The position numbers were made by a program, and so were the translations under genes. Positions 2,004 to 10,337 of a stretch of DNA of 24,529 nucleotides are shown here, one piece after another. How positions within the stretch are numbered: the first letter of the stretch is position 1; the number at the start of each line of letters is the position of its first letter. The notes below the pieces were generated by a model. That model saw only the letters and a list, made by a program, of their open reading frames with translations. It ran no database searches and had not been told where the DNA came from. Source of the stretch: a virus; IMG/VR virus record IMGVR_UViG_3300047476_000226, positions 1 to 24,529 of that record. One strand, written 5' to 3'.

Positions 2004-2198
2004 ATGAGATTCTGGTTAATTTGGGCTAGAGCGACAGGTCACCTGATGGGTCGTACTGATGATGATAAACCAGATGTGCCAGTATTGACTCTACAAGAAG
2101 CAAAAGTTGCACTCTTGTTAAAAACTTTTTGGGTTGTGATACACGTAGTTACGTGTTTCTTTATTATTGCTAACTTTTTCTTCACACATATATTATGA
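2004..2198 (+). CDS. Small single-TM membrane protein
   Basis: 64 residues from ATG 2004, or 50 from ATG 2046. The core PDVPVLTLQEAK followed by a hydrophobic helix (LLLKTFWVVIHVVTCFFIIANFFF) resembles a small membrane protein I recall from marine T4-like phages; its function is unknown. The start is ambiguous. The longer form adds an aromatic/basic MRFWLIWARATGHL segment, but the promoter at 1972 would start RNA just downstream of ATG 2004. ATG 2046 has an AGGT-like sequence upstream. The stop overlaps the UvdE start (ATGA). Confidence 0.55.
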   Translation: MRFWLIWARATGHLMGRTDDDKPDVPVLTLQEAKVALLLKTFWVVIHVVTCFFIIANFFFTHIL

Positions 2199-3214
2199 CA
2201 AACGGTAAAATTGGTTTTGCTTGCAAGTGGATTGATACAGTCGAACAAGTCGAAGGTATCAAACCTAAAGATGATGCTAAGAAATACAGCACAGGTACAA
2301 CTACTGTTGCCTGGCTTGGTCGACAATCAAAATCAGTTGCTGAAGAAAAGCTCTGGGATATTAGCAAACAGAACCTTCAAAATACTCTTAACCTAGTTAA
2401 CAAAGTTGCCACGCTACCTGAAGGTTTGCGTATGGTTCGTATTAGCAGCGAGATTCTGCCTGTATACAGCCACGCAGCTTGGAAATACTTTTATCAGCGA
2501 CAAGATGTGATTGACGTTCTTCAACGTGGCTTTGCTAAGATTGGCGATGCTGCTCGTGCCGCTGGCGTTCGTCTGAGTTTCCATCCTGGTCAGTTCTGCG
2601 TTCTTGCTTCAGAAAACCCAGGCATTGTAAACAACTCTATTGACGAGTTTGAATATCACGCTGATATGGCTCGTATGATGGGCTATGGTCGTACATTCCA
2701 AGACTTTAAAATCAACGTACATATCTCAGGTAAACTAGGTCCTGATGGTATTCGCGCAGCTTACAAGCGTCTTTCTACAGTTGCACAAAACTGTATCACT
2801 ATCGAGAACGAAGAAAATGCATGGGGTCTTGATGACTCTTTAAAACTTGCTGATCTACTGCCTATTGTTCTTGACGTACATCACCACTGGTGTCGTGAAG
2901 GTGAGTGGCTTGATCACAACGACGATCGTGTCAAACGTGTTATTGATTCTTGGCGTGGTGTTCGTCCAACTATGCACTACTCGCAATCACGCGAAGACTA
3001 TCTTGTTGATCACGATGTTGACGTAAAACCAAATTACACTGCTCTTTTAGAAAATGGTTTTAAGAAAGCCAAGCTGCGCGCTCACTCTGACTTCTATTGG
3101 AATCATGCATGTAACGAATGGGTTCTTGATTACTTAAAGACTCATGATATCATGTGCGAAAGCAAAGCAAAAAACTTGGCAAGTTTTAATCTTTATAACC
3201 TTGCTAATCACTAA
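2195..3214 (+). CDS. uvdE: UV damage endonuclease (UvdE/UvsE family)
   Basis: 339-residue UV DNA-damage endonuclease. The family nicks DNA immediately 5' of cyclobutane dimers, 6-4 photoproducts and other distortions, starting alternative excision repair. Family hallmarks are an N-terminal IGFACKW strand, LRMVRISSEILPVYSH, SFHPGQFCVLASENP with metal-binding His, the ENEENAWG acidic metal site, VLDVHHHWC (His/Asp ligands), and MHYSQSR near the C-terminal third. It is a TIM-barrel, triple-metal enzyme of about the usual length. Its ATG overlaps the preceding stop. The codons are less AT-biased than those of the 1227 gene. Repair of phage or host DNA in sunlit water is the likely role. Confidence 0.93.
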   Translation: MTNGKIGFACKWIDTVEQVEGIKPKDDAKKYSTGTTTVAWLGRQSKSVAEEKLWDISKQNLQNTLNLVNKVATLPEGLRMVRISSEILPVYSHAAWKYFYQRQDVIDVLQRGFAKIGDAARAAGVRLSFHPGQFCVLASENPGIVNNSIDEFEYHADMARMMGYGRTFQDFKINVHISGKLGPDGIRAAYKRLSTVAQNCITIENEENAWGLDDSLKLADLLPIVLDVHHHWCREGEWLDHNDDRVKRVIDSWRGVRPTMHYSQSREDYLVDHDVDVKPNYTALLENGFKKAKLRAHSDFYWNHACNEWVLDYLKTHDIMCESKAKNLASFNLYNLANH

Positions 3215-4257: not shown

Positions 4258-4911
4258 ATGAAAACATTTATACATCATGATTTTGCGAAACTAGAAAGGG
4301 ATACAGCTGCTGATGGTCGTCGAGTTTATAAGACACCAGAAGGTAAGCTGTATCCTTCAGTCACTTCTATTACAGGAGTGAATAGCACATTTGATAGAGT
4401 TGCTTGGGAAAGACGTGTTGGCGTTGATGAAGCAAATCATATCACTCAACGTGCACTTAATCGAGGTACTCGCGTTCACTCTCTTTGTGAGAACTTTCTT
4501 CTTGGTAATGAAATTGTTGTAGATATGTTTGATCAAGATATGTGGAGCACTATGCGACCGCTACTTGATAAAATTGATAACATACATTGTCTTGAAACAC
4601 CATTATATTCTGACTTCCTTCAGGCTGCTGGCACAGTTGACTGTATTGCAGAATACGAGGGTAAGTTATCTGTTATAGATTTTAAAACTTCTTCAAGAGT
4701 AAAAGAACGCAACGATATCCATAATTACTTTGAACAGACTGCAGCTTATGCGGTTATGTTTGAAGAACGTACAGGTATTCCAATCGGTCGTCTGGTTATC
4801 TTAATGGTAATTGATGATGATGCACCCAGAGTGTTTATTGAAAAGCGCGATGGTTGGATTGCAGGATTCCGTAAGTCGCGTATGGACTACAGAAATAAAT
4901 ACGGCATATAA
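4258..4911 (+). CDS. PD-(D/E)XK nuclease, RecB/Cas4-type exonuclease
   Basis: 217-residue predicted nuclease of the PD-(D/E)XK superfamily (RecB/Cas4-like). The diagnostic core is AAGTVDCIAEYEGKLSVIDFKTS (about residues 121-143). The Asp of TVD and the D-x-K of IDFKTS are the metal-binding catalytic residues. A helix before the core carries RGTRVHSLCENFL, the His-containing motif I of RecB-like nucleases, and the QTAAYAVMFEERTG helix after the core matches motif Q-x(2)-x-Y. It likely acts on DNA ends in recombination, repair or host DNA turnover. It sits directly after phoH with a 2-base gap, and its stop overlaps a late promoter. Confidence 0.8.
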   Translation: MKTFIHHDFAKLERDTAADGRRVYKTPEGKLYPSVTSITGVNSTFDRVAWERRVGVDEANHITQRALNRGTRVHSLCENFLLGNEIVVDMFDQDMWSTMRPLLDKIDNIHCLETPLYSDFLQAAGTVDCIAEYEGKLSVIDFKTSSRVKERNDIHNYFEQTAAYAVMFEERTGIPIGRLVILMVIDDDAPRVFIEKRDGWIAGFRKSRMDYRNKYGI

Positions 4912-4914
4912 ATA
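4907..4914 (+). promoter_or_regulatory. T4-type late promoter TATAAATA
   Basis: Exact match to the T4 late octamer, overlapping the stop codon of the nuclease gene and 27 bases before the radical SAM start. It implies gp55/gp33-dependent late expression of the gene at 4941. A gp33-like gene lies at 13160 in this window. Confidence 0.75.
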
Positions 4915-4940: not shown

Positions 4941-6395
4941 ATGATTTTTGAAATTCATGCGCAGAGAGAAAACGACCCTACTGATAAGAAGGTTTTTTAT
5001 TATGACAATATGAAAAACATTCTTAAAGACGATCAGGGTAAGGTGATTGAGTATTCTGATATTCAACAAAACCCAAACAAGAAAGAGTTCATTAACTTCA
5101 ACAAGGATATTCCTTTAAAGAAGTCAAGAGCAATCAATCATCTGAAAATTCAGCTTGGTCTTTCTTGCAACTACTCTTGCGATTATTGCTCACAACGTTT
5201 TGTCGAACGCGCACCTGAAACGTCAAAGAAAGACATTGATGCTTTTATGACTAAGCTAGATGTTTTAGACTTTAATGAAGCAGATGGTCTTCATGTAGAG
5301 TTTTGGGGTGGTGAACCATTGGTGTATTGGAAAACTCTGCGTCCTCTGGCAGAAGCCATTCGTGAAAGATTTAAAACCTGGGAAAAGAAGCCATTCTTTT
5401 CAATCATTACAAATGGTTCTATTTTAACTGATGAAATGATTGATTGGTTAATGATGATGAACTTTCAGGTAAGCATCTCTCATGATGGTCCTGGTCAATC
5501 TGTTCGTGGTCCAGACCCATTTGACGATCCTGAAGTAAAGAAACGTATTCTTGGTTTCTATCGTATGATGACACGTTTGAAGAAACCTTTTAGTTTCAAT
5601 GCTATGTTGAATAAAAAGAACACATCTCGTAAAGCAATCTATGATTGGTTTGTAAACCTTACTGGAGACCCAGATGTTATGCTTGGTGAAGGTTCTATCG
5701 TTGATGCATACGAAGAAGACGGTATTGGTAATTCACTAACTACTAAACAAGAACACTTTGAGTTTCGTCGACAAGCCTTTGGTGAAATCTATTCAACTGA
5801 TGGCCAGATTGGTTTTAAAGGTATCATCTTTAAAATGGGTGACTTTGCACAAAGAGTTCTTTCTCACGAAGAATCAATCTATCTTGGACAGAAATGCGGC
5901 ATGGATGATGAGCGTACTATTGCGGTAGACTTGCGTGGTAATGTTATCACTTGCCAGAACGTTTCTGCTGCTGAAGTTTCCAAGAATGGTGAATCTCATC
6001 TTGGTGGTAACCTTGACAACTATGACGATGTTCAGTTTACTTCTTCTACTCACTGGTCTAACCGCAAAGAGTGCCCCGAGTGTCCTGTTCTACATCTATG
6101 TAAGGGTGCTTGTATGTTCTTAGACGAAAAGTTTTGGGATATTAGCTGCGCAAATTCCTATTCAGATAACGTTGCTTTGTTTGCTCTGACATTTGTTAAA
6201 TTGACTAATGGATATATTCCTTCTTTAATCAAGAGCGATACTCTTGCTCTAGATCGCCAGGATATCTGGGGAACTATCTATGAACATAAAGAACAACCTA
6301 CGAAAAAGGTAATTCCAATCAAGATCGTTGCTGAAAAAGTCGGTCAGATTGACGATGTTGTAGTTTATGGTAAATCTAGAATCGAGTCAGTATAA
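4941..6395 (+). CDS. Radical SAM/SPASM domain maturase
   Basis: 484-residue radical S-adenosylmethionine enzyme. The [4Fe-4S]-SAM motif CNYSCDYC is at residues 76-83 (Cys 76, 80, 83). The GGEP SAM-binding motif is at 123-126. The C-terminal third has a classic SPASM arrangement: C319, then G333-x4-C338, then C378-x2-C381-x5-C387-x3-C391, then C403, enough for two auxiliary clusters. SPASM proteins typically modify ribosomally made peptides or proteins (thioether, C-C or epimerised residues) or act as enzyme maturases. A late promoter lies at 4907, and a Cys/Asn-repeat protein follows 25 bases downstream under its own late promoter. That neighbour is the obvious candidate substrate. The enzyme class is certain; substrate and reaction are inferred. 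Confidence 0.92.
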   Translation: MIFEIHAQRENDPTDKKVFYYDNMKNILKDDQGKVIEYSDIQQNPNKKEFINFNKDIPLKKSRAINHLKIQLGLSCNYSCDYCSQRFVERAPETSKKDIDAFMTKLDVLDFNEADGLHVEFWGGEPLVYWKTLRPLAEAIRERFKTWEKKPFFSIITNGSILTDEMIDWLMMMNFQVSISHDGPGQSVRGPDPFDDPEVKKRILGFYRMMTRLKKPFSFNAMLNKKNTSRKAIYDWFVNLTGDPDVMLGEGSIVDAYEEDGIGNSLTTKQEHFEFRRQAFGEIYSTDGQIGFKGIIFKMGDFAQRVLSHEESIYLGQKCGMDDERTIAVDLRGNVITCQNVSAAEVSKNGESHLGGNLDNYDDVQFTSSTHWSNRKECPECPVLHLCKGACMFLDEKFWDISCANSYSDNVALFALTFVKLTNGYIPSLIKSDTLALDRQDIWGTIYEHKEQPTKKVIPIKIVAEKVGQIDDVVVYGKSRIESV

Positions 6396-6398
6396 ATA
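6391..6398 (+). promoter_or_regulatory. T4-type late promoter TATAAATA
   Basis: Exact octamer overlapping the radical SAM stop codon, 22 bases before the Asn-Cys protein start. Its geometry is nearly identical to the copy at 4907. It suggests strong late, possibly structural-protein-level, expression of the 6420 gene. Confidence 0.75.
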
Positions 6399-6419
6399 AT
6401 TAGAAATGGGTAACCAAAC

Positions 6420-7301
6420 ATGACTCTACCACAATCTCCGAACTCTATTGCAGTATCTCAAGTTAACTCAGAACTTGAGATATCGTCTACCACTCAGTCA
6501 GACTTAAACTGGCTAAACGGATATATCAAATCCAATATCAGACCAGCCTCGCCAAATATGCAATCTTTCTACGGATTGGCATATTTTAACAGAACTGTTG
6601 ATGGTAACTGTAATAATGCAAATGCTGGAAACTGTAATTGCAATTGTGGTAATATTCAATGTACAGCTAATGCTAACTGCGAAAATATTAACTGTGTAAA
6701 CTGCGAAAGCACTAGAACTCTACAGGCTAACTGTAACTGCGCCTGCACTTATAACTGTAATTCTAACCAGAACTGCTTCTCATACAACTGTAACTGTTCT
6801 AAGATTATCTGTACTAAACTATTTGAATTAGGAATGTTAGATAGAGATGTTTATCTAGCCGATCAAGAGTTTGGCCAGTGGCTTGTAGAGAATCACCCTG
6901 ATGTATATCATGGTTATATTGCTTGGGCGCAGATTGTTGTTGATTGGATTGAAGAGCGTGGTCCATATATTAACTTCTGGGTTAAAGATAAAACCGAACA
7001 AAAGAAGAAACTTTCAGCTTGGGCTACTCGTTGGGCAAAAGAGATTGCTACACCTTGGGCTGAGTGGATGGCTCATAAAATGGGTATCAAACCAAAGACA
7101 AATTATACTGGGTTTGTATTAATGTCTATTGGTGCACCAATTAGTAAGGTAGTTGGCTTTGTACAAAGAAAACTAGGCAAGACAAATAAGCCAGCTGGAA
7201 TTATTACTGGCTTAGCACTAGTTGGTATTTTTGCTTTACTGCTTGGTGTTGTTAAAGTTGGTAAGTTATTCGAACAAAAAGGATTAGAATATGTCAGATA
7301 A
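6420..7301 (+). CDS. Asn/Cys-repeat protein, candidate modified virion protein
   Basis: 293 residues in three parts. Residues 1-60 (LPQSPNSIAVSQVNSELEIS...) resemble the N-terminal module of many marine phage structural proteins (pattern LPSSG-ISLSQVN-ELG). Residues 61-131 contain 16 Cys and about 21 Asn; 13 of the 16 Cys follow an Asn, including NCNCNC, NCNC and a second NCNC. Residues 132-293 are a Trp-rich, mostly helical domain ending with a likely transmembrane helix (about 258-280, GLALVGIFALLLGVV). The gene sits behind its own late promoter and directly after a radical SAM/SPASM enzyme, so it is a candidate substrate for thioether or other backbone modification. Alternatives are a metallothionein-like metal binder or a disulfide-bonded tail or lysis protein. 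Its function is not known. Confidence 0.75.
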   Translation: MTLPQSPNSIAVSQVNSELEISSTTQSDLNWLNGYIKSNIRPASPNMQSFYGLAYFNRTVDGNCNNANAGNCNCNCGNIQCTANANCENINCVNCESTRTLQANCNCACTYNCNSNQNCFSYNCNCSKIICTKLFELGMLDRDVYLADQEFGQWLVENHPDVYHGYIAWAQIVVDWIEERGPYINFWVKDKTEQKKKLSAWATRWAKEIATPWAEWMAHKMGIKPKTNYTGFVLMSIGAPISKVVGFVQRKLGKTNKPAGIITGLALVGIFALLLGVVKVGKLFEQKGLEYVR

Positions 7302-7734
7302 CGAAAAGCCAGAACTTAATGAACAAGAACTTCTAGAAATGGGTTTAGGTATCGTTCCTGCTATTGATACATTCAATCAAAATCCATTTCCCGTCGGTAC
7401 AATTAAGTTTGTGGATGATCAAGAACTAGTTTATAAACACGAGCATGTTTTACACTGGTTTGAAACAATTGTTCTTTCAAGAACTCTGAACTTATCTCCA
7501 GAAGATAAAGATCGCTATTTTCAAATGGTAACCGACTATGCTGATATTTTGATTAAAATTAGCGGTGATGATAACCATGTTATTTTTAAAGCTGCACTTG
7601 GCAAGCCATTTGAAGATCTAGAAAATCATGCTAAAAATTCTGGTATGAAGATTGATTATGATAAGCCAAAGAAACTTTTAGATGAGTATTATGCTTGGAA
7701 AGAAAAACAACCAAAGTCTAAGAAAAAGAAATAA
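7291..7734 (+). CDS. Acidic hypothetical protein following the Asn/Cys protein
   Basis: 147-residue soluble protein, acidic at the N-terminus (MSDNEKPELNEQELLEMGLG) and with a basic Lys tail (about the last 15 residues). The middle is predicted helical (HEHVLHWFETIVLSRTLNLSPEDKDRYFQMVTDYADILIKI). It overlaps the Asn/Cys gene by 11 bases and has AGGA upstream, so it is translationally coupled and probably works with that product, for example as a chaperone or assembly partner. It has no Cys and no recognisable catalytic motif. I do not recognise the family. Confidence 0.6.
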   Translation: MSDNEKPELNEQELLEMGLGIVPAIDTFNQNPFPVGTIKFVDDQELVYKHEHVLHWFETIVLSRTLNLSPEDKDRYFQMVTDYADILIKISGDDNHVIFKAALGKPFEDLENHAKNSGMKIDYDKPKKLLDEYYAWKEKQPKSKKKK

Positions 7735-7785: not shown

Positions 7786-8502
7786 ATGAATAATACAAGC
7801 AATCAAGAAGACAGACAAAGATATCACTGGTATCAGAACGCACAAAACTTATTTTGGAAAAGTCCAATTTGGGAAGTTGATCTGGGTTATGACTCAGAAT
7901 GGAACGCAGCTTTACTAGAAGAAATCTATGACATTGGTCGTAATATTACTCTTGGTATTGACAAATCTCCAAGTAATAGTATTTGGGACTATGCCTACAA
8001 GTATCCGCATCTTCAAGAAATTAAAGACAAGATTATTGAAGTTGTAACTACGACTATTACAAAAGAAATCCCTGAAATTAGAATGTTAAACATCAAAGGG
8101 TGTGAACATTTTATGGGTTGGATTAATGTTCGCGAGCCAGGAGAATCTCTAGAGGTTCATGGTCATACTGAGTCAGCTATTGCTGCAACATATTATGTCA
8201 AAGCGCAAGATGGTTGCGGCGATCTAGTTTGTTTTGATACAGGTGGCGCGATTGATTTTGAAAATAACAGATTAACAGGTTCACCGTATATTCGAGAACG
8301 CCGATATAAACCAGTTGAAGGACGTTTGATTTTCTTTCCTAATTATGTTCTTCATGGCGTCGATGTAAACAAATCTAATGACTTAAGAATATCATTGACT
8401 ACTGATATTCGTAAAGTTGTTGACCCAAATGCCTCTAATACAGTTATTCTTAAAACTTGGGCAGGAAGAATGTCTAAGATTAAAGATTGGAAACCTGAAT
8501 AA
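7786..8502 (+). CDS. 2OG-Fe(II) oxygenase-like protein
   Basis: 238 residues resembling the putative 2OG-Fe(II) oxygenase family seen in many T4-like marine phages. The core includes GWINVREPGESLEVHGHTES (about 111-130, candidate iron ligand H125 or H127), AATYYVKA, and a distal LIFFPNYVLHGVDVN...RISL segment with H190 as second iron His and R201 as likely 2-oxoglutarate-binding Arg. These enzymes hydroxylate proteins or small molecules using O2, 2-oxoglutarate and Fe(II). It is the first gene of a four-gene overlapping set, and its stop overlaps the next start (TAATG). The substrate is unknown. Proximity to the radical SAM/Asn-Cys module makes protein hydroxylation an attractive inference. 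Confidence 0.75.
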   Translation: MNNTSNQEDRQRYHWYQNAQNLFWKSPIWEVDLGYDSEWNAALLEEIYDIGRNITLGIDKSPSNSIWDYAYKYPHLQEIKDKIIEVVTTTITKEIPEIRMLNIKGCEHFMGWINVREPGESLEVHGHTESAIAATYYVKAQDGCGDLVCFDTGGAIDFENNRLTGSPYIRERRYKPVEGRLIFFPNYVLHGVDVNKSNDLRISLTTDIRKVVDPNASNTVILKTWAGRMSKIKDWKPE

Positions 8503-9038
8503 TGTTTTGTAAGGTTAACTATAACTTTGATAAACCGCTGTATGTAGTTACAGAAGGTCTTAAACGTTTTACTGGTGAAAATGGTTATGGTATTGATTAT
8601 AAAAAGATATGGAGTCCAGATGAATCTAAACTCTTATCAATCATACCAGAAAGATATTGGCAAGACTTTCATTTAACAGTAATGTCAATTAACAGAGATA
8701 TTCCACCACACACTGATACAGGAATTGTAACAACAATTAATTTTTATTTGGATGTTGGTGGTGAAGATATTGATACTGTATTTTATGAAACCATTGTAGA
8801 TAAACCAAAAACCTTTCAAATAGAAAATCAAATAGATGGATTTATATTTGATAAGACTCAGATACGCGAAACTGCTAGGTTTCGCGCAAAGGCTATGGAG
8901 TGTTGGGTTCTAGATGTAAAGAATATACACAGCGTTGAAGGTAATTTAACCAGAGATCGAAAAGCAATAACTCTTGGAACTTGTTTACACAAATATAATG
9001 ATGTTATTGATATGTTTAAGGAAACAAGATGTTTGTAA
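8502..9038 (+). CDS. 2OG-Fe(II) oxygenase-like protein, paralogue A
   Basis: 178 residues with a double-stranded beta-helix signature. The proximal HxD is in IPPHTDTGIVTTINFYL (H70, D72). The distal His and Arg are in WVLDVKNIHSVEGNLTRDRKAITLGT (H143; R151 or R153). The protein is clearly paralogous to the next gene, sharing KPL-x(3)-EGL, KKxWSPD, IPxRYW and TTINFY blocks at the same positions. It is shorter than typical oxygenases, with only the catalytic core. It overlaps its neighbours by 1 and 10 bases, indicating translational coupling. Oxygenase chemistry is inferred from the retained H-D-H-R set; the substrate is unknown. Confidence 0.68.
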   Translation: MFCKVNYNFDKPLYVVTEGLKRFTGENGYGIDYKKIWSPDESKLLSIIPERYWQDFHLTVMSINRDIPPHTDTGIVTTINFYLDVGGEDIDTVFYETIVDKPKTFQIENQIDGFIFDKTQIRETARFRAKAMECWVLDVKNIHSVEGNLTRDRKAITLGTCLHKYNDVIDMFKETRCL

Positions 9039-9559
9039 AACTTAAAAACAATTTTACCAAACCTTTATTTACAACTGTTGAAGGGCTTACCTCTTTTGCA
9101 GGTATTGATGGTAAAGGAGTTGGACATAAAAAAGTTTGGTCTCCAGATTCTGAAGATTTTTATTCAGTGATACCAAAAAGATACTGGGCTGACTTTGATT
9201 TTAGTTTAATGACAATCAATTCTAGAATTTACCCGCATGTTGATAGAGATTATATTACTACAATTAATTTCTATATTCAAACTGGTGGAGATTATATAAC
9301 TTCGTTTTATTCAGATGGAGATCTTGCAGATATAAGTGACTCTGTAGATTATTGTAATGGTGTTTATAAAGAATCTAGCTTAACAGAGGTTGGTTTTTTT
9401 GTAGCTAAAGACTATGAAGCATGGCTACTTGATGTATCTAAAATACATACAGTTCATAATACATTTGGAACTGAAAGAAAAGCCTTGACTTTAAGAACTA
9501 AGCGTTACACATATATAGAAGTGTATGATATGTTAAAGGAAACTGATAATGTGGTATGA
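9029..9559 (+). CDS. 2OG-Fe(II) oxygenase-like protein, paralogue B
   Basis: 176 residues, a tandem paralogue of the preceding gene. The proximal motif is IYPHVDRDYITTINFYI (H70, D72). The distal part is WLLDVSKIHTVHNTFGTERKALTLRT (H140, R150). The spacing between motifs is almost the same as in paralogue A, while loop sequences differ widely. This suggests an old duplication with substrate divergence. It starts inside the upstream gene (overlap 10 bases) and ends 11 bases inside the next one. The putative catalytic residues are all present, so both copies are probably active. Confidence 0.68.
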   Translation: MFVKLKNNFTKPLFTTVEGLTSFAGIDGKGVGHKKVWSPDSEDFYSVIPKRYWADFDFSLMTINSRIYPHVDRDYITTINFYIQTGGDYITSFYSDGDLADISDSVDYCNGVYKESSLTEVGFFVAKDYEAWLLDVSKIHTVHNTFGTERKALTLRTKRYTYIEVYDMLKETDNVV

Positions 9560-10337
9560 GAGACTAGATGTTCAATTTGATATTGAAAAATTACGCAGCG
9601 CTGTACGTGAACACGTATTCACTCTTGGTGATCAAGTAATTCAGGGTGAAGAATATGAAACACCACAATACAATGGCTTTGGTGGTTGGTCTTTATTAAG
9701 TCGTAGTGCTGACTGGAGAGATGGCTGGGAAGCAATTCAAATGGAAGGTGGAACCTCATTAGAACAAATGCTACCAACGCCAGAGTTAATATATAAAGCC
9801 CATAAGCATTTTGGTATTGCGCATAGTCTAGAACATGATAAACCAACACAAGCATACGTTGGATATATCAAAGAAGTTCTTGACACTCTAAAGGATATGG
9901 GTTTAACACCTCGCCGTGCAAGAATCACTTGTTTAAAAGCAGGTTCTAAATCTCTTGTACATAAAGATGCTGATACAACTGAGTATATGGCACGTTTACA
10001 TATCCCTCTTTGGACTAATGAAAAATGTGTTCATATCTGCGAGGGTGATAGCTTGCATATGAAAGCCAATGGTAGTGCATATATTATATGGACTAACCTT
10101 TGGCACCAGATTCGTAATGACTCAGATGAAGATCGTTATCATTTGATTATGGATGTTTATGATACTAAAAAGATTACTGACAATTTTAAATATGAAGGTA
10201 ACTTTGAAGAGTTGGAAAACTTTGTTCGTGGTTCAAGAGAGCAGATTGAAGCAGTTGATCTAACTGAAGATGACAAACAATTCTTTGATGCACTTAAACA
10301 ACGGTATGTTACAAAAACCTTGACTTACAATAAATAA
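9549..10337 (+). CDS. Aspartyl/asparaginyl hydroxylase-like oxygenase
   Basis: 262 residues resembling the aspartyl/asparaginyl beta-hydroxylase-type 2OG-Fe(II) family. The block around residues 124-204 has ARITCLKAGSKSLVHKDAD (iron ligands H138 and D140), YMARLHIPLWTN (R149), a small turn with GSAYIIWTNLWHQIRN (distal H186) and EDRYHLIMDVYD (R196, 2-oxoglutarate or backbone contact). An N-terminal extension of about 120 residues may provide substrate specificity. It is the last gene of the oxygenase set. The -35 of the tmRNA promoter lies within its final codons. An asparagine hydroxylase-like enzyme near an Asn-rich late protein is suggestive but unproven. Confidence 0.75.
   Translation: MWYERLDVQFDIEKLRSAVREHVFTLGDQVIQGEEYETPQYNGFGGWSLLSRSADWRDGWEAIQMEGGTSLEQMLPTPELIYKAHKHFGIAHSLEHDKPTQAYVGYIKEVLDTLKDMGLTPRRARITCLKAGSKSLVHKDADTTEYMARLHIPLWTNEKCVHICEGDSLHMKANGSAYIIWTNLWHQIRNDSDEDRYHLIMDVYDTKKITDNFKYEGNFEELENFVRGSREQIEAVDLTEDDKQFFDALKQRYVTKTLTYNK

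Follow-up and report, generated by a model that had tools for sequence, protein, structure and literature searches.

A radical SAM/SPASM enzyme paired with an asparagine-cysteine tract in T4-like and other phages

The 24,529-base IMG/VR record IMGVR_UViG_3300047476_000226 (the window, meaning the whole stretch of DNA analyzed) is a T4-like phage fragment, so assigned because of its PhoH, exonuclease, UvdE, baseplate-type and single-stranded DNA-binding-type genes (the last two recognized by eye). In it, a gene for a radical S-adenosylmethionine (SAM)/SPASM enzyme is followed by one for a protein with a tract of alternating Asn and Cys residues (the NC tract), which raises the question of whether the enzyme modifies the tract and, if so, with what product. 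A preliminary description, drawn from the DNA letters, had counted 16 Cys in about 68 residues, 13 of them after Asn. The count was reproduced for Cys64-Cys131, in which 13 of the 16 Cys are in NC pairs, and none of 100,000 shuffles of that stretch reached 13 such pairs (maximum 12). The codons of the tract are mixed (TGT and TGC for Cys, AAC and AAT for Asn) and Tandem Repeats Finder detected no DNA tandem repeat in it, which rules out an artifact of repetitive DNA; the two observations together therefore indicate selection at the protein level.

Pairing of the enzyme with the tract

A scan of viral contigs for the enzyme yielded 63 loci, or 23 clusters when grouped at 85% identity. In bacterial and archaeal genomes, a profile scan yielded 80 loci (59 clusters), mostly from Burkholderiales and Alphaproteobacteria and in phage-like neighborhoods. 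With a viral tract gene defined as a same-strand gene having at least three NC pairs within a short span, one was found near the enzyme in 61 of the 63 viral loci (22 of 23 clusters); one miss, L065, is cut off by the contig end. An alternating-Cys tract gene on the same strand was found near the enzyme in 62 of the 80 genome loci (47 of 59 clusters), or in 55 of them when a strict NC criterion was applied. Such tracts are carried by 117 of the 10,223 open reading frames (ORFs) of at least 60 amino acids in the enzyme loci. Since clades share history, the cluster counts are the apt ones to quote.

The converse association was obtained by scanning viral contigs for the pattern NCNCxCNC, blind to the enzyme, with antisense and simple-repeat matches removed. 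Among the matches listed, 44 genes were credible; for 35 of these the enzyme is in the surrounding stretch, and for another 5 it is farther off in the same record (40 of 44 in all). The contigs of three enzyme-less genes (L161, L179 and L185) end 0.7, 1.1 and 0.2 kb downstream, and in the fourth miss (L148), on a 10.9-kb fragment, the motif is atypical and internal to a protein of 2,081 residues. That the credibility filter was not set to favor the pairing is shown by the 13 loci with a match to the enzyme family that it also excluded. The preliminary description had named frequent occurrence of NC-repeat proteins without the enzyme as one observation that would speak against its proposal, and these counts show no such frequent occurrence. 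The best candidate counter-example was classed by the filter as non-credible: a Cys-rich, NC-bearing ORF (L094, 9834-11279) in which NCNCNCNC comes early. Its 47-kb record has no enzyme, and the ORF is possibly unrelated.

Presence and absence were also followed within the bacterial family that includes Limnohabitans (301 genomes). Five of these genomes have the enzyme, four of the five with a tract gene nearby. Three of the four tracts end their proteins (NCNCNCNCCGC, NCNCDCNCC and NCDCNCNCNCCGC) and one, NCNCTC-FPAGT, is joined to a Hint domain. The strict NCNCxCNC pattern occurs in 12 of the genomes; two instances are genuine, both from genomes that have the enzyme, whereas the remaining ten were rejected as perfect hexanucleotide DNA repeats. 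A natural control is available in Synechococcus phage SynMITS9220M01. The C-terminal domain of the window NC protein is common, by fold, to a DUF4815 phage protein and to a 616-residue protein of this cyanophage; the latter carries a homologue of the domain, with three Cys in the whole protein and no NC tract, and the phage gave no match in the enzyme search, so that tract and enzyme both appear to be absent.

The co-occurrence in both directions, the modularity of the tract (described below) and the control without either partner strongly support the proposal of a SPASM enzyme dedicated to an Asn-Cys tract within a large protein of the phage. On this genomic evidence the pairing of the enzyme with the tract as its putative substrate is strongly supported, and some modification of the tract by the enzyme is very probable.

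Additional copies and more distant relatives were also encountered. Thalassobacter stenotrophicus (L248, L253 and L272) has several copies of the module in one genome, with four matches in G550. An enzyme relative at L356 (G613), in the same record as the tract gene L186, has one TGA and one TAA within its match and is apparently a decayed or frameshifted copy. Two different radical SAM genes stand in tandem at L166, L167, L231 and L256, the additional one preceding the first (MLNIFLGYACNF-like in L231). Small proteins, that of L110 ending in DDYSTACNCNCNCNCTRGIL, are found at L110 (3054-11671) and L123, where several radical SAM genes of divergent sequence are also present (four matches in L110), and at L095 and L133 a CQxCQ/CxxC-repeat protein ending in NCNCDCNCNCSDDS adjoins a distant enzyme relative (109 bits). 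Campylobacter T4-like phages, which have 11-12 radical SAM genes (PMC2853527), were considered as carriers of the same system and rejected: their enzymes score just 37-51 bits and no NC tract is nearby.

The tract as a portable tag

Judged by the proteins that carry it, the tract is a portable tag, placed at tail-fiber C-termini, before Hint domains or within the T4-like protein. In proteins from outside the T4-like clade, it mostly forms the extreme C-terminus, and the protein ends, for example, in QTTRYNCNCDCNCC or YNFNCNCNCNCDCYC. Counted by enzyme cluster, the terminal type accounts for 43, the T4 type for 15 and the Hint-fused type for 6; Hint-fused forms in addition to these six clusters occur at L204 and in Achromobacter phages JWF and 2-1. 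The isolate JWF has both the enzyme and a tail-fiber-like gene in which NCNCDCNCNCSC occurs together with a Hint domain. At L062, a T4-like N-terminal segment and tract are followed by a Hint domain that replaces the usual C-terminal domain. In the phylogeny of the enzyme, T4-type loci form one clade, whereas the Hint type requires at least three changes.

The Hint domain, which is intein-like, directly follows the tract, with its first Cys continuing it, at L204, L235, L268, L270, L274, L279, L317, L001, L003 and L062. This placement suggests cleavage or ligation at the tag. The Hint-fused forms, like the 2-oxoglutarate (2OG) oxygenases treated below, go beyond what the preliminary description had observed.

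Eight of ten non-T4 substrates matched tail-fiber PHROGs; among the ten, two have collagen repeats and three have weak to clear Hint matches. The presumed substrates are mostly 120-670 amino acids long, with a few of 67-95, and as a group are not short precursors. The gene directly after the tagged fiber encodes a weakly conserved family of ~260-300 amino acids (L202:4567-5376, L210:3080-3904, L219:4623-5411, L231:3866-4753 and others), which is possibly a fiber chaperone.

Searched by itself, the window NC protein could be placed convincingly in no family of Pfam, PHROG or NCBIfam and had no direct tail-fiber match. An AlphaFold2 (AF2) model of the unmodified protein predicts a disordered tract and places a hydrophobic helix at about residues 261-292, in keeping with the earlier account of a large substrate (293 residues) with a C-terminal helix, which that account took for a membrane helix.

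Both genes had been credited with late promoters. Two exact TATAAATA sites are present in the window, similarly placed at the upstream stop and 22-27 nt ahead of the start codons, and the number alone is not significant (2 sites against 2.6 expected). Across the related T4-like loci, 32 of 58 NC genes have a TATAAATA site in the 70 nt before them, as against 3 of 55 enzyme genes and 1 of 641 other ORFs (at least 100 amino acids). Conservation of the late promoter is therefore seen for the NC gene and not for the enzyme gene. Scans for sigma-70 promoters and terminators gave nothing above chance. Because the late promoter is conserved and the C-terminal domain has a fold common to structural-type phage proteins, the window NC protein is likely to be a virion component.

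Enzyme family and presumed chemistry

The enzyme has the complete radical SAM motif (C76xxxC80xxC83) and the seven SPASM Cys residues (319, 338, 378, 381, 387, 391 and 403) that had been reported for it, and all ten cluster Cys are invariant among 26 aligned relatives. It scores above the cutoff for the SPASM domain family TIGR04085 and belongs to phrog_1802 (E 1e-59, residues 19-428), a 'radical SAM domain-containing protein' family that includes Achromobacter phages JWF and 2-1 but whose record carries neither function nor substrate. The folds nearest to its AF2 model (predicted local distance difference test score 88) are the SPASM enzymes anSME, CteB, TigE, ChlB and SuiB.

The top NCBIfam relatives are PapB and then QhpD, both thioether-forming and both far under cutoff (86 bits against 340 for the PapB equivalog NF047865, and 81 against 453 for QhpD TIGR03906). 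PapB and the ranthipeptide maturases resemble the phage system in combining radical SAM and SPASM domains with a Cys-dense substrate having Asp/Asn-like partners, but the phage substrate is virion-type and leaderless, and the phage enzyme model has no winged-helix recognition domain. QhpD, of quinohemoprotein amine dehydrogenase maturation, also targets a protein rather than a natural-product peptide, although that target is unrelated. The best fold match, anSME (4K36-4K39), shares the CGM motif and a protein target; however, its catalytic Asp277, after the second SPASM Cys, is Gln in 125 of 130 members of the phage enzyme family, and its fourth cluster ligand, Cys261, is present in none of the 130, which therefore do not have the eight-Cys anSME set. 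The seven SPASM Cys leave auxiliary cluster I with three ligands, in the pattern of the SCIFF maturase CteB (5WGG and 5WHY; fold E 1e-12), in which auxiliary cluster I has three Cys and cluster II has four. We take the assignment of Cys to clusters, with the open site as the site of the substrate Cys, to follow the published CteB proposal as generally understood. SCIFF precursors are short leader-bearing peptides, and CteB has an N-terminal recognition element of the kind found with ribosomally synthesized and post-translationally modified peptides (RiPPs), whereas the N-terminus of the phage enzyme shows beta strands only.

No winged-helix RiPP recognition element was found in the enzyme model, in which residues 1-60 are mostly confident (a separate gene for such an element was not searched for by profile), and RiPP-style leader recognition is therefore unlikely. 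No leader-like segment was noticed in the substrate alignment, and no dedicated protease or exporter was obvious in the gene lists, to which no profile search aimed at them was applied. As no leader was seen and no leader-binding domain was modeled, the system is not a classical RiPP, and 'RiPP-like' fits the presumed chemistry alone. The RiPP-like layout of the preliminary description is thus retained for the presumed chemistry, and the substrates elsewhere are tail-fiber proteins. Neither the PapB score nor the presumed substrates, which are not short leader-bearing precursors, place the locus in the sactipeptide or ranthipeptide class, to which it had been likened.

The residue preceding Cys in the alternating runs is Asn in 394 instances, Ala in 122, Asp in 49 and any other in 34, near-identical loci included. 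In ruminococcin C, RumMC1 links Cys to the alpha-carbons of Ala and Asn (PMC6779426), and PapB links Cys to Asp or Glu over 0-6 intervening residues (PMC9413430). Ala and Asn are thus documented acceptors for the RumMC1/MC2 sactipeptide enzymes, but the substrates of these are small leader-bearing peptides, and an alpha-carbon linkage in the phage tract would be by analogy. Given these acceptors, a thioether is the best guess, and we judge its formation by the enzyme to be somewhat more likely than not.

The reading that we favor, and hold to be reasonably probable from the genomic and modeling evidence, is that the enzyme is a dedicated tract maturase whose thioether ladder staples a tail-fiber or fiber-like virion protein. 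The SPASM enzyme would mature the alternating (Asn/Ala/Asp)-Cys tract of the adjoining late phage protein by abstracting hydrogen from Asn, Asp or Ala, the carbon of which would be joined to Cys sulfur on the open auxiliary [4Fe-4S] cluster. With this joining repeated many times, the tract would come to hold thioether staples in a redox-stable ladder and, so stapled, would form a rigid tip or segment of the tail fiber or fiber-like protein. In some phages the tract may be exposed through cleavage by the Hint domain that adjoins it and, more speculatively, 2OG-Fe(II) oxygenases, if present, may hydroxylate the same protein.

Several observations weigh against this reading. A 44-kb record (L054, G013) has an intact enzyme gene and no tract gene anywhere, and the enzyme is without a recognized tract in 18 of the 80 genome loci; several of the 18 are short or truncated, and some, L261 and L262 among them, are well covered. 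The T4-like loci are not independent, since the neighborhood of that clade reflects shared ancestry, and the virion location of the window protein is deduced from its late promoter and relatives. PapB makes no cross-link when the motif is transposed and Asp precedes Cys (PMC9413430), so the acceptor relation here would have to differ or use a downstream Asn. The structural match, moreover, cannot separate thioether formation from Cys oxidation. This bears on the alternative that the enzyme acts on the tract and makes something else, be it a Cys oxidized to formylglycine or to a thioaldehyde, a carbon-carbon or an aminovinyl link, or an epimer. The structure that matches best is that of anSME, which forms formylglycine, in complex with a Cys peptide; the JWF copy is annotated as a sulfatase-maturating enzyme, and SPASM enzymes perform many reactions. 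Such a product nevertheless seems rather unlikely, given the replacement of Asp277 by Gln and the missing extra cluster ligand described above, and because Cys oxidation alone leaves the strict Asn/Ala/Asp partner unexplained.

The same partner rule, and an invariant radical enzyme, would go unexplained if the tract were a metal- or iron-sulfur-binding needle that the enzyme prepares, protects or modifies at a few residues. That proposal, which we consider improbable, draws on the strict CxC alternation, which sets Cys on one strand face, on the trimeric nature of tail-fiber tips and the usual C-terminal position of the tract, and on the comparable logic of the His-x-His iron sites of T4 fiber tips. 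It is very improbable that the Cys of the tract form disulfides or stay free and that the enzyme targets some other host or virion molecule travelling with the genes: enzyme loci without a recognized tract would fit this, but it is the tract, not the flanking protein, that tracks the enzyme over unrelated fiber architectures and many lineages, and, among the matches listed, enzyme-less tract genes are almost only on truncated contigs.

Gene neighborhood and significance

The features of the window are collected in the table. A UvdE UV-endonuclease homologue is at 2195-3214 (PF03851, E 6e-41).

Table. Features around the enzyme and NC-tract genes, in window coordinates
Feature	Position	Strand	Basis
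TATAAATA late-promoter-like site before the enzyme gene; overlaps upstream stop	4907..4914	+	
Radical SAM/SPASM enzyme, 484 aa	4941..6395	+	PHROG and NCBIfam profiles, alignment, AF2 model
TATAAATA late-promoter-like site before the NC gene; overlaps enzyme stop	6391..6398	+	
NC-tract protein, 293 aa, presumed substrate	6420..7301	+	
N-terminal segment of NC protein, residues 1-60	6420..6599	+	Alignment; common to T4-like NC proteins and Hint-fused L062
Asn-Cys tract, residues 61-131, 16 Cys, 13 NC	6600..6812	+	
Helical C-terminal domain of NC protein, with terminal hydrophobic helix	6804..7298	+	Model
Small gene, 147 aa; overlaps NC gene, often syntenic among T4-like relatives	7291..7734	+	
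2OG-Fe(II) oxygenase	7786..8502	+	PF13759, 59.6 bits
Small protein with HxD...H pattern, possible 2OG oxygenase; syntenic in relatives	8502..9038	+	By eye; no Pfam match
Paralogue of the 8502..9038 gene	9029..9559	+	
Aspartyl/asparaginyl beta-hydroxylase-like protein	9549..10337	+	PF05118, 45.6 bits

Genes resembling 2OG-Fe(II) oxygenases are present in 57 of the 63 viral enzyme loci (20 of 23 clusters) and in 53 of the 80 genome loci (35 of 59 clusters); among the motif matches listed, they are present in 25 of 46 loci with the enzyme against 4 of 66 without it. As the profile was seeded from enzyme loci and the control stretches were unmatched in length and content, this link is a lead. In most loci the oxygenases adjoin the enzyme directly, one to three per locus (window 7786-10337; L202-L228). 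JWF-type and Paraburkholderia-type loci have none, and the minimal unit is therefore tract plus enzyme. The beta-hydroxylase-like gene, a candidate member of the module, keeps its place near the pair across the whole T4-like clade, the syntenic setting in which its relatives always lie, and is otherwise nearly absent from phage isolates (one Pelagibacter phage); its product could act on tract Asn.

A broader proposal can be put forward tentatively, as possible but doubtful: a widespread maturation of virion proteins in which a leader-independent enzyme staples a fiber-tip tag, often with 2OG hydroxylation, and in which Hint domains serve exposure or transfer in some lineages, possibly with covalent bonding to the host surface. 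The preliminary description knew of no phage system of this form, and neither the pairing nor radical SAM chemistry on phage virion proteins was found described in the open-licence literature, a coverage that leaves subscription journals and preprint servers mostly outside. The Cys tag that many phages and prophages have on tail-fiber or similar proteins, with its own presumed maturase, appears to be an undescribed way to harden or arm part of a virus. If the favored reading is true, many environmental phages and prophages would cross-link part of their host-contact apparatus enzymatically, and a new annotation rule would become available for 'hypothetical' fiber and enzyme genes. The enzyme itself would be a leader-independent, tag-directed cross-linking enzyme, with a substrate code of NC, AC and DC alternation, usually at the C-terminus.

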